Part shown: positions 1,596-53,697 of the stretch, piece after piece | How positions within the stretch are numbered: the first letter of the stretch is position 1 | How the letters are laid out: each line of letters opens with the position of its first letter | NCBI GenBank assembly: GCA_033439265.1 | Contig: JAVTVX010000010.1 | Span: 28,447,056-28,511,055 of the forward strand | Direction of reading: 5' to 3' | From: Dillenia suffruticosa | Taxonomy: Eukaryota; Streptophyta; Magnoliopsida; Dilleniales; Dilleniaceae | DNA length: 64,000 nucleotides | The notes under the pieces: generated by a model | What the model was told of the DNA's origin: nothing | The model's input: only the letters and a program-made list of their open reading frames with translations | Databases searched by the model: none | Program-made: the position numbers and the translations under genes

Positions 1596-1801
1596 TTTTT
1601 TCTTTTTTTTTGGGTACAATAGTTAGGCCACCAATCTAGTATTTAGAGTTTCGTTCCGATTAATCTGGGTCAATTTCTTGTAAGGCCCAATTGAGGGGTA
1701 AGTCTCCCAATACTGATTTTTTCGTTTCCGTAGAGATCGAATTCCCGATTATGATTAAGGGGCGTCAGTTTCTGAACTAACTGGACTATCATACGTTAAT
1801 T
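1596..1801 (-). mobile_element. SINE (dispersed family A), flanked by 14-bp target-site duplication
   Basis: Member of the roughly 170-205 bp SINE family that recurs through the window. Read on the minus strand it has a box-B-like segment around GAATTCGATCTC, the conserved middle (GGGAGACTTACCCCTCAA), the 3' block with GATTAATCGG-like sequence, and an A-rich end. The perfect duplication AAGAATATTACTCT lies at 1582-1595 and 1802-1815, which fixes both ends. Confidence 0.8.
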
Positions 1802-2704
1802 AAGAATATTACTCTAACACTATCTAATTATTGAAAACAATTTTTATTATTTTTTGGATACTATTTTTACTCACATTATGCTTTAGTTGAAATTGAATTT
1901 TGATAACATATTTTTCTTTAAAAACAAAATACACCCACTCATTTTTGTTTTTTAAAAGTAAAACTATTATGCAATTAGGTAATAGCCTTTTGGTGCCCTC
2001 GTTAAACTTTTACGAATAAACAAACTCAAATCATATCAGTAACTTTAGTTTATTCGATAATATTGGATAGATTATTTTTAATTGTATATTTTTAAATTTA
2101 TGGATGAATAAAAAAAATAAATTATTTAATTTATTTTTAATATCTAATTTGTAATTTTGTATATGTTTTACGAAATACATCCACGGACCCAAAGGCTTAC
2201 TCGGGCCAGCTCCACAAGGTGACAAGACCGCTTCAGCATGGCTCCACTGTTCAACCGGATGCTGCCCAAGAAACCTCCCATGACAAAATGAGTTCAAACA
2301 TTGGTCTCTTCAACATGGGTCTCTGCCTCTGAAGAGAGTTCAATCATGGAGTAGGCCTTGACTCTTGGTGGGCCTGCTCAATGGACCATGGCCCAATTAG
2401 AAAAGAAAGACGGGTCAAAGCAACAAAGTGTAAATTCAGAAAAAAGATAAAGCAAAAGAAAAAGTTAAAACAGTCACCAGATCTGTACGCCTCGCACCAA
2501 CGGGTTGCTGGTAGAGTAGTCGGTGACATTGATATATCTTACGTACGATGAAAGCAGGTATCAAGAGACCTTTGATAATTTAATTCAAATTAAATTTAAT
2601 ATAATTATCAGGTTTCAATACCTATGATTTATTATTAAAAAGAATTTGAACAGCTAATTGCGCATCTATATAAAAGAAAATTTATCATCCAATTCTTTTT
2701 AATT

Positions 2705-2858
2705 GAACGGTCAAGATATTCTACTTTTAATCATAAGTTTTGAATTCGAATTTCAAAAATAATAAAAGATTATTTGAGAGAGACAATTCTTAAAATAAGT
2801 TTTATAATATTTGAATCGAATTATTAGAATAAAATACATATATCGATGATGAAAAAAA
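2705..2858 (+). mobile_element. SINE (family A)
   Basis: Carries the family signature: box-B-like TTGAATTCGAATTTC, then TTGAGAGAGACAATTCTTAAAATAAG, then TTTGAATCGAATTATTAG and ATCGATGATGAAAAAAAA as the A-rich tail. No clear target-site duplication is left. Confidence 0.65.
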
Positions 2859-3359
2859 AGGAGGTTTGCGGCCCAATTGTTGAGTTTGGTTGAACAACTC
2901 AATTTATTAAGGTTGGCATAAACGTAAACAGATTATGGTGCTCACCCACCAAACCCAATTCACATAAAATATGTAAATTTTCGTCTTTAACTTACTATCC
3001 AAAATTAAAATTTTATGATAAATAAATATTAAAAAATATATGTCATCGATATTTTAAAAAAGCACAATATCTCATCAAAACCTTCCTCGTAATATTTTAA
3101 TGTGAAAACTATAAAATTAATATTAAACAAATTTTGTTGGCTTTTTAGTAATACAGAAAATATTATCTACATCAATACAAGCAAAATATTTTTAATGGAG
3201 TCGAAGCAAATCCTATTTTCATTTTTATTTGACTAGTAATTATAGAATTATGCAAAGCTTATAAAATAAAAAATTGCGTGACAAATATAAGTTTTATGTA
3301 TTTTTTTAATATATGAAAAGAAAAAGAAAATATTTCTTTTATTCTGATAGCCACTGTGC

Positions 3360-51800: not shown

Positions 51801-53035
51801 CATCCAAATCAAAAAATTTCTCATTTCACCACTGATAAGAGAGGTTTAAATGTGGATAAGGCCAGCACAAGACGGCATTTTAAATGCATGAATATATAAT
51901 GCAATAAAGATTTAGAATGAATAATTACACGTGATCTATCTATAAGCATGAGGAGTGTAATTAAGAAGAGTGTTGGTTCATACTATGGACTCGAAATAAA
52001 GAATTGAATTAAGAAGACATCACCGTCCTAGGAGCAAATACATACCTAAATAAAGTGAAAATTTCCTAGAGGGGAGAGCACAAGAGAAATTTTTTCTTTT
52101 TGCTTGGTAAATTTGTGGGGGTGGCGAGACTTGAAACTAATCTGGGTCAACGGGAGGGGATTGGTATCATCACAACTACAGGTCTTTGGTAGCCCATAAT
52201 AGAACCTCCTCAAGCAAGATTTGTATTGTGCAGTGGTAAAAGGGCAAATAAAAACCCGGGTTTGCTATAGGAACAAAAGATGTAAGAATCTTTAAAGACA
52301 ACAATTTAAATAAGTAAAGAATGCAATCCAGCTAAATTGAAATCTGAATGACAAGTGTTTAAAGCCCATTTGCATACACTTCTTGAGTAGCCATAATTAA
52401 TTCAATGATGTCTCTCATGCAATTTCAATTAGATTTGTGAAACGACTCATCACCTTTGAACTTGACATAGAAATACTTTGGCTTAAAATGTTAGCGTCAC
52501 CATAAAAATGTATGAAATCATAACATCACGTAAGCAATATACGTCCACCACAAATTTTATGAAAAACTAGTCCAATCATTTATGTTACAGAACAATATAT
52601 GTGTGTGTGTATTTTTAATTTTACAGAGACAATAACCACATTTTACAAACGAAATACAAGCCTTTTCAACCTAAAACAAATCATCAGCATAATCATCTAG
52701 CCTCTTAAGTGCATGTCTCTTTATAACTTTTCTACATAAATATTATCAATTAAATTCAATTCTTTTTTTTTGGTGGGGGCGTGGAGGCGGGGGGTTCTAT
52801 TGTTCTCACAAACGATCGATGACCTTAACAAGCCATTCCATTAAAAAGACGATAGATTATTTTCTGACCAGCGTTGCAAATGAAACAACACCTAAATTTA
52901 TAGATCTGAAACTAATTTGCAAAACAAACACGTAAATTATAGAGACAGGGGGAGAGAGAGGATACCAGCGCTACAAGAGGTAGGAGGATCCTTCTGGAGG
53001 TCCTTGAGCTCCTTCAAGATCCGCTTCGATGCCAT
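42834..53035 (-). CDS. UBC8-like E2 ubiquitin-conjugating enzyme (exons 52966-53035, 48372-48499, 43331-43435, 42834-42977)
   Basis: E2 of the plant UBC8/9/10/28 class, related to animal UBE2D and yeast Ubc4/5. It takes ubiquitin from E1 by thioester and passes it on with RING or U-box E3 ligases. The four coding exons sum to 447 nt, giving exactly 148 aa, the family length. The protein starts [20 protein letters not shown]; exon 2 holds [20 protein letters not shown]; exon 3 holds the HPN motif (75-77) and catalytic Cys85 in NGSICLDIL; exon 4 ends SWTQKYAMG. All junctions are GT-AG: CTG|GTATCC, GGCAG|GAC, AAG|GTATTT, GCAG|GTAG, AAG|GTTCG and TCAG|GTAC. Introns are 4466, 4936 and 353 bp, large for this small gene; intron 1 hosts an LTR-retrotransposon array. 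No coding lesion is seen, so the gene should be functional. Confidence 0.97.
43037..43150. repeat. 30-bp direct duplication in UBC intron 3
   Basis: The 30-bp segment starting ACATTGCAGTGAAGAGTAAT occurs at 43037-43066 and 43121-43150. The neighbouring ATATTTCCTGGTACCAAAGA also recurs (43094, 43140), indicating local slippage or tandem duplication. Confidence 0.8.
45951..46019. repeat. (AAT/AAAT)n microsatellite in UBC intron 2
   Basis: Irregular AATA/AAATA units over about 70 bp. Confidence 0.8.
46608..46655. repeat. (AAT)n(GATAAT)n microsatellite in UBC intron 2
   Basis: AAT units pass into repeated GATAAT and GATCAT units. Confidence 0.85.
47897..47960 (+). mobile_element. Probable 3' end of a TTG-tailed SINE
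   Basis: CATATAGCTCATCCACTTGG, then TGGGATAAAGGCTAGG and TTGTTTGTTGTTG, resembles the 3' end of a widespread plant SINE type that finishes in TTG repeats. It is a family different from family A. No duplication was found. Confidence 0.4.
48877..49176 (+). repeat. LTR1 of the intronic retrotransposon
   Basis: 300 bp, bounded by the perfect inverted termini TGTTAGG...CCTAACA. The TATA-like GGCTATAAAAAGGC at about 48977 fits the LTR promoter. About 14 substitutions separate it from LTR2, counted by eye. Confidence 0.9.
49264..50330 (+). pseudogene. Defective gag, copy 1 (capsid-like domain and CCHC zinc knuckle)
   Basis: Begins at ATG 49264 with a coiled-coil-like N-terminus ([10 protein letters not shown]). 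Stops appear early, near 49420 and again near 49578. The capsid-like core ([20 protein letters not shown] at about 49590; [13 protein letters not shown] near 49703) is typical of Ty3/gypsy gag. A segment present in copy 2 is deleted after ALASTR. A complete zinc knuckle, CX2CX4HX4C ([14 protein letters not shown]), lies at 50228-50269. It is in a different frame from the long open stretch before it. Confidence 0.85.
50527..50824 (+). repeat. LTR2 of the intronic retrotransposon
   Basis: 298 bp with the same TGTTAGG...CCTAACA termini as LTR1. A polypurine tract precedes it, as expected of a 3' LTR, and a second internal region follows it, as expected of a 5' LTR. Confidence 0.9.
50911..51540 (+). 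pseudogene. Defective gag, copy 2 (3' truncated)
   Basis: Same N-terminus and capsid-like core as copy 1, with an early frameshift in the A-run after ATGACTC and several stops. It retains the segment lost from copy 1 ([20 protein letters not shown]), then breaks off at about 51540, before the zinc knuckle. Confidence 0.85.
52772..52795 (+). repeat. G-rich tract in UBC intron 1
   Basis: GGTGGGGGCGTGGAGGCGGG and more G after a T-run. It can form a G-quadruplex; in the UBC pre-mRNA the complementary C-rich sequence is transcribed. Confidence 0.6.
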
Positions 53036-53400
53036 CTCGGAAACCTAACCAAAAAGATTTCCAAAATTTACGACTCAGATCCGCCTCAAAGGAGGAAAAA
53101 AAAAGAAATGACCAGAGCGAGAATCGGAACCAATACCTCAGAAGCGCCGGGATTATTCGAGGGAGATTATGCGATGGAGAAGATGAAGATGGAGAATGTA
53201 ATGGAGGAGAAGAATTGGGGATTGCAATGGAAAAGATTTTTTGAATGAAGGGAAGGCGATAAGTTTTACAATAGAGAAGGCAAACTAAGGGAATGATAAT
53301 AATCACAGCGCTGTTGTGGCTATCTACATCTATATGAAGACGGGAAGGGTTGCTTGAGATTGACGCAGGCTGATTGGCTATTCTTTTTGTGCGGGTGGGC
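53036..53400 (-). promoter_or_regulatory. UBC leader and core promoter
   Basis: A short 5'-UTR intron is likely at 53045-53136: donor GAG|GTATTGG, a pyrimidine tract, acceptor GGTTAG|GTTTCCGAG just before ATG. Upstream on the minus strand lie a TATA-like CATATAG near 53330 and a CCAAT box at 53373-53377. These are inferred from motif position only. Confidence 0.5.
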
Positions 53401-53511
53401 CCTCTCCGCTATTTAGGCTTTCCAATGTTTTTACTTTTCTCTTTAATCTAATAATTAAATTGTCTAATATCCAAATTTTGTAGATGTTATGATATCCACG
53501 CAATGTATTAT

Positions 53512-53697
53512 TATTATTTTTTTATATTATACCTAATCAAAATTTATATTTTAATTATTTAATTCAATCTGAATTTACAGTATTTTAGGGAGCTAACCTC
53601 CTAACATTATCTATTTTATATCTAAATCGTGATTCGAATTTGTAATTTTGATTAAAAAATTTAATACCATATTTTACTAGATTAATTGACTGTTCGT
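53512..53697 (-). mobile_element. SINE (family A) with target-site duplication
   Basis: CACGCAATGTATTAT (53497-53511) and CACACAATATATTAT (53698-53712) match at 13 of 15 bases. The reverse body includes CCTAATCAAAATTTATATTT, TAGGGAGCTAACCTCCTAAC and the box-B-like TGATTCGAATTTG. Confidence 0.8.

Follow-up and report, generated by a model that had tools for sequence, protein, structure and literature searches.

SINE copies at the locus and their insertion marks

A stretch of 64,000 nucleotides from the genome of Dillenia suffruticosa (assembly GCA_033439265.1, contig JAVTVX010000010.1, positions 28,447,056 to 28,511,055, hereafter the window) holds host genes, several repeats, and a dense set of short interspersed elements (SINEs), which were assigned to 3 groups, A, B, and C (Table 1). 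An initial annotation, made from the sequence of the window, had counted at least 19 copies in both orientations, and our profile search returned exactly 19, on both strands. The 10 intervals listed in that annotation aligned into 1 profile, with which nhmmer recovered those 10 copies and 9 more, all 19 at E<=1.3e-9. Three rounds of profile iteration left the count stable at 19 matches with E<1e-3. The reversed window gave no match at E<=1 with the ten-interval profile, and the best match in 1.28 Mb of second-order Markov shuffles had an E of 0.17; with the iterated profiles, the best reversed match was at E 0.91 and the best shuffle match at E 0.14. Leave-one-out profiles recovered 10 of 10 listed copies, 9 at E<=3.4e-6 and the truncated copy 20347 at E 0.005. 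A profile made only from copies in the 200 kb flanks, themselves found with the window profile, recovered 17 of the 19 window copies at E<1e-3, missing 13649 and the truncated 20347. With ends as set in this analysis, the 19 copies cover 3,565 bp (5.6% of the window). The body motifs that had been given as conserved, GAGAGTCAACYCCTAAAATG and ACTCGAATCGAATTAATCGG, proved to exist as consensus only, being exact in no copy (best 1 and 2 mismatches, respectively). A probable 20th copy matched the B1, A, and general profiles at E 0.0023, 0.081, and 0.042.

Target site duplications (TSDs) were assessed by scoring flanking direct repeats against 1500 random sites of equal geometry, with p<0.05 taken as significant. 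Significant TSDs were identified in 12 of the 19 window copies, with about 1 expected by chance, and in 10 of 18 with other limits and another profile. The 10 TSDs reported earlier all differed from random sites at this threshold, 4 of them being perfect over 13-16 bp as claimed (1596, 11360, 13649, and 36401), and those of 21522 and 31222 were added. The duplication of 38969 is a GA-rich repeat of only 10 bp, and those of 12379 and 53512 are imperfect. Element length, put at about 170-205 bp and 126 bp for the truncated copy, is fixed by the significant TSDs at 167-206 bp and 118 bp. Of 46 copies from elsewhere in the genome, 14 had a significant TSD, with about 2 expected (binomial P 3e-8); these 14 include 5'-truncated copies with perfect duplications (L006 and L008), and 1 of them is a simple GA repeat. 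In the window, 18 of the 19 copies carry a run of at least 6 A close to the 3' end, and 21522 has a run of 5. Among the 46 outside copies, 37 have such a run at the 3' end, compared with 7 that have one immediately before the 5' end; the background was 193 of 2000 random stretches. Copies outside the window thus show the TSDs and A tails that the initial annotation called for.

The tRNA-like head proposed there was demonstrated on 1 of the 19 copies. The head of copy 2689 aligned to the full length of the Rfam tRNA model with 23.8 bits, beginning 4 bases inside the copy, and was the sole tRNA match in the 64 kb at E<=10 under permissive limits; a 141-base stretch with this head, searched alone, gave an E of 0.0037. 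At gathering scores, Rfam returned nothing in the window. The heads of the window copies align to one another, and, with 1 match to the tRNA model, the tRNA origin rests on the well-preserved copy 2689 together with the alignment of the others.

The identity of the copies as SINEs is supported by the tRNA-like head of 1 copy, the A tail, TSDs, 5' truncation, insertion in both orientations, and dispersal across the genome. We put at roughly 0.95 the probability that the window contains old copies of at least 3 related tRNA-derived SINE groups in a Dilleniaceae genome. The mechanism is standard for such elements. Through its box A and box B, the tRNA-like head would have driven transcription by RNA polymerase III, and a long interspersed element (LINE), most likely of the L1 type, would have recognized the A tail, the RNA being copied in by target-primed reverse transcription. 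Amplification appears to have ceased long ago, after which the copies decayed mainly by transitions, and they are gathered in SINE-rich stretches, the window being a strong example.

Several observations weigh against this interpretation. No significant TSD was found in 7 of the 19 window copies and 32 of the 46 outside copies. The tRNA score of 23.8 bits lies below the Rfam gathering score of 29, ARAGORN identified no tRNA in the window, and permissive searches of 2 smaller stretches (9000-12600 and 30150-36650), with the heads of 10 other copies, gave no tRNA match either. The fold of 1 copy was no better than that of shuffles (z -0.06), and the LINE partner is one that we only infer. Further, genome-wide searches for close relatives covered 2 copies, so that groups C and B1 could have younger members.

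Table 1. SINE copies in the window, with strand, group, and insertion marks (TSD, target site duplication).
Feature	Position	Strand	Marks
SINE copy, group C	1596..1801	(-)	TSD AAGAATATTACTCT 14/14 at 1582-1595 and 1802-1815
SINE copy, group A	2689..2880	(+)	head 2693-2763 matches Rfam tRNA model positions 1-71; no significant TSD
SINE copy, group B (B1)	7120..7319	(-)	no significant TSD
SINE copy, group A	9078..9260	(+)	weak TSD candidate 12/15, p 0.09
SINE copy, group B (B1)	9595..9789	(-)	no significant TSD
SINE copy, group A	11360..11542	(+)	TSD AAATTGTTGGACC 13/13
Probable 20th copy, 3' half only, 5'-truncated, group B-like	11787..11851	(-)	profile matches
SINE copy, group B (B1)	11862..12047	(-)	TSD 13/15
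SINE copy, weakly placed (C profile best; beside A in trees)	12379..12556	(+)	TSD imperfect, 16/19
SINE copy, group A	13649..13826	(+)	TSD AATAAAATAACTAAA 15/15
SINE copy, group A, decayed	19269..19459	(+)	no significant TSD
SINE copy, group A, 5'-truncated	20347..20464	(+)	TSD 18/20 including TCATGTTTGTGA perfect
SINE copy, group B (B1)	21522..21707	(+)	TSD ATATTATTAGT 11/11, p 0.044
SINE copy, group C	30205..30410	(+)	no significant TSD
SINE copy, group A	31222..31409	(+)	TSD 14/16
SINE copy, group C	32388..32584	(+)	TSD TCAATGGTACAC(A/G)CC 14/15
SINE copy, group A	34890..35086	(-)	no significant TSD
SINE copy, group B (B2), full length	36401..36591	(-)	TSD TACTTTTATATATTTC 16/16
SINE copy, group A	38969..39172	(+)	TSD 10 bp, GA-rich
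SINE copy, group B (B2), about 0.5 kb upstream of UBC start codon	53512..53697	(-)	TSD 15/18, p 0.04

Shared 3' segment, groups, and age

The groups have a common 3' segment composed of ATTARTC, a short palindrome, and RATAYCG, followed by the A tail, and we regard it as an evenly balanced question whether the copies belong to the Angio-SINE superfamily. Seibt et al. 2020 reportedly described Angio-SINE families related through their 3' part, with an Angio-domain resembling this segment, and compensatory changes are said to preserve the 3' RNA structure in that superfamily. In the palindrome here, no covariation was seen: 229 of 300 pairs were formed versus 225.9 in shuffles (5328 of 20000 reaching the observed value, for 100 listed of 399 genomic sites), and among the window copies, 3010 of 20000 permutations reached the observed covariation value. 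One of 3 palindrome pairings gave p 0.033, uncorrected for 9 tests and in decayed copies, and palindromes extracted from genomic loci were too noisy for use: a loose filter let through 37 of 62 rows, a good number of which were plainly wrong. The absence of covariation fits independent decay after insertion and says little on the source genes. By description, the tRNA-type head, variable body, and conserved 3' segment are those of the superfamily, and the segment lies directly before the A tail, which is the place given to the conserved 37-bp 3' Angio-domain of many angiosperm SINEs in the available part of a plant transposable element review (PMC9033089).

Like p-SINE of rice, TS of tobacco, ZmAU, ZmSINE1, and ZmSINE2, the copies are tRNA-related SINEs; unlike these families, which end in poly(T) according to the available text of PMC2774510, they carry an A-rich tail. 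Poly(T)-ending plant SINEs of the p-SINE, TS, and ZmAU type were ruled out because all 19 window copies end A-rich. The same partial source describes ZmSINE3 and Brassicaceae SINEs as tRNA-related with a poly(A) end, a description that the copies share, and assigns ZmSINE3 a 3' end in common with a LINE. We found no report of Dilleniaceae SINEs, no name for these families, and no SINE sequence suited to comparison in the open-licence literature.

Pairwise identity among the 19 copies ranged from 41% to 76%, with a median of 54%. Trees and profiles placed 9 copies in group A (counting 19269), 6 in group B, with sub-branches B1 and B2, and 4 in group C (counting 12379, which scored best with the C profile yet adjoins A members in trees). 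Cross-searches with the A, B1, and C profiles revealed homology across much of the element, beyond the 3' end. Best-scoring profiles divided 48 outside copies into 16 of A, 17 of B, and 15 of C, many by wide margins, although these proportions are not a census because 8 outside loci were picked by an A/B-type motif; a few outside copies scored close between A and B1 or between B1 and B2.

The initial annotation had proposed 1 family with at least 2 subfamilies. The common body and 3' end were upheld, whereas cross-profile scores and an identity of about 50% separated at least 3 groups. A single SINE family with subfamilies would agree with the finding that the A, B1, and C profiles each pick up certain copies from the other groups across much of the body (C copy 1596 matched the A profile at E 1e-8, from position 24 to 158 of 187), and the case is borderline under the maize subfamily rule of >50% identity outside common features, as given in the accessible portion of PMC2774510. 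We consider a single family rather unlikely, given the median pairwise identity of 54% (41-76%) and the many outside copies that strongly favor 1 profile (C 106.6 versus A 36.1; A 120.2 versus B1 21.2). On account of the low identity and the separate profile scores, the copies are read, from their sequences, as at least 3 related families or deep subfamilies.

Copies were 59-83% identical to their group consensus (Kimura 2-parameter distance 0.21-0.69), which is biased to G and C by construction. Compared with this consensus, transitions numbered 574 and transversions 207, and G-to-A plus C-to-T accounted for 362 of the 781 changes, although the rule used to build the consensus inflates this proportion. 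The best other relative of copy 31222 in the genome was 85% identical, among 40 scored of 2085 first-look candidates, and the best of copy 36401 was 80% identical, among 40 scored of 772. No near-identical relatives were present among the 40 scored for either of these 2 query copies, and BLAST with 36401 identified near full-length relatives across many contigs. The families look silent, and amplification seems to have stopped long ago.

Distribution, host genes, and other repeats in the window

Within the window, the first 39.2 kb hold all but 1 of the 19 copies (binomial 0.0012, with the boundary chosen afterwards; Kolmogorov-Smirnov p 0.02), and the largest gap between copies, 14.5 kb, is not unusual (p 0.15). 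Local amplification of DNA that carries SINEs, by segmental or tandem duplication, could produce such a dense cluster, and 3 copies begin about 510 bp apart (11360, 11870, and 12379, the second set at 11862 in Table 1) in a window in which other DNA is duplicated; however, these 3 belong to different groups, with 1 in the opposite orientation and with differing TSDs, the 19 copies are only 41-76% identical, and a masked self-comparison found no duplication joining copy flanks at E<=1e-4. Local amplification was therefore rejected and is very improbable as the source of the cluster. Miniature inverted-repeat transposable elements (MITEs) or tRNA pseudogenes, suggested by short, AT-rich, dispersed copies with 1 tRNA-like head, are more improbable still, in view of the A tail, variable-length TSDs, 5' truncation, and a body conserved past the tRNA-like part, with no search for terminal inverted repeats having been made.

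The host genes are ordered as PDV1 exons at 3595-6102 (+), a CRF-type ERF at 25925-26986 (-), and a UBC E2 gene at 42837-53035 (-). The CRF-type AP2/ERF protein and the PDV1 exon at 5611-6102 were each 89% identical to a Dillenia turbinata protein, with the second-best matches likewise in D. turbinata, which places the plant in or near Dilleniaceae and, probably, outside D. turbinata itself. What we take to be the UBC E2 gene, recognized by E2 protein words, runs from its start codon at 53035 to the end of its last exon at about 42837. The introns of UBC and TH1 had been described as apparently free of SINEs; this was confirmed for UBC, as its coding span holds 0 copies, and TH1 was not located in the window. 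A Pfam search of 10 open reading frames identified only AP2 and RNase H domains. Several Hibiscus syriacus CRF homologues are labelled "PDV1" or "ubiquitin-conjugating enzyme" in databases, and these labels may reflect conserved gene order.

Several other repeats were observed. An RNase H domain of LINE type lies at 15435-15926 (-), of which 15435-15872 matched Pfam RVT_3 at E 2.3e-12. A stop codon separates the domain from another piece upstream, and a short A-run follows downstream; judged on these features, the locus is a putative LINE-like remnant among the SINEs. A UBC intron contains a direct repeat of about 970 bp (48877-49843 and 50527-51480), 90.5% identical and about 680 bp apart, whose copies start TGTTAGGG and whose spacer ends in a purine-rich tract, which suggests the remnant of a long terminal repeat (LTR) retrotransposon. 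A 100-aa open frame inside the second repeat copy (50916-51218) tempers the LTR reading. An inverted pair at 19707-19869 (+) and 32074-32212 (-), 72% identical with the conserved core CATGCAT..ATTGTCTCAATT.TGGATAATTTAGGATTTGTTTG, is another repeat, and overlapping direct repeats at 10312-10949, 70-77% alike, resemble an imperfect tandem array.

Abundance in the genome and significance

The genome assembly comprises 596.36 Mb in 37 contigs. A body 20-mer with up to 2 mismatches was found at 793 genomic places, compared with 2 for the backward control, and a 27-mer from the group A 3' end with up to 3 mismatches at 282 places, compared with 0 for its control. The high local density claimed in the initial annotation is real: the window has 19 copies per 64 kb (297/Mb), the flanks 26 per 200 kb (130/Mb; 29 copies with a second profile and 0 in the reversed control), and random places 3 per 60 kb (50/Mb), the random sample being 20 places of 3 kb drawn only from contig stretches known through earlier matches. 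Clustering is also seen in other parts of the genome: the 24 kb around 8 anchor copies held 9 further copies, compared with the 3 in the 60 kb sampled at random, which suggests, on small numbers, that clustering extends beyond the window.

Scaled to the genome, the density at the random places corresponds to about 30,000 copies, with a Poisson range of 6,000-87,000. Estimates from pattern ratios were 4,500 (1,600-22,000) and 19,000 (5,600-156,000) and are weak because the patterns were picked in the window and matched no flank or random-place copy. It is doubtful, though conceivable, that this Dilleniales genome is among the most SINE-dense in plants, with at least 3 related tRNA-SINE families that have long been silent, decayed copies numbering between some 10^4 and just under 10^5 over 596 Mb, and SINE-rich stretches of 130-300 per Mb. 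In the available text of PMC2774510, maize has 1,991 SINEs of 4 families in its 2.045 Gb, and those SINEs are biased to gene-rich regions, 1,195 of them lying within genes (introns or untranslated regions hold 1,174, and putative exons 21). The maize density per Mb is thus far below that observed here. The example species of AnnoSINE have about 500-20,000 SINE copies, according to the part of PMC8825457 that was available.

The kind of element is ordinary, and density may be the only feature likely to surprise a specialist. SINE families are hereby documented in Dilleniales for which the searched literature gave no name, and their density may far exceed the figures for maize and the AnnoSINE species. 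Old SINE insertions such as these are usable as markers of relationships within Dilleniaceae, and the dense old SINE load provides a test case for why plant SINEs gather in certain regions.

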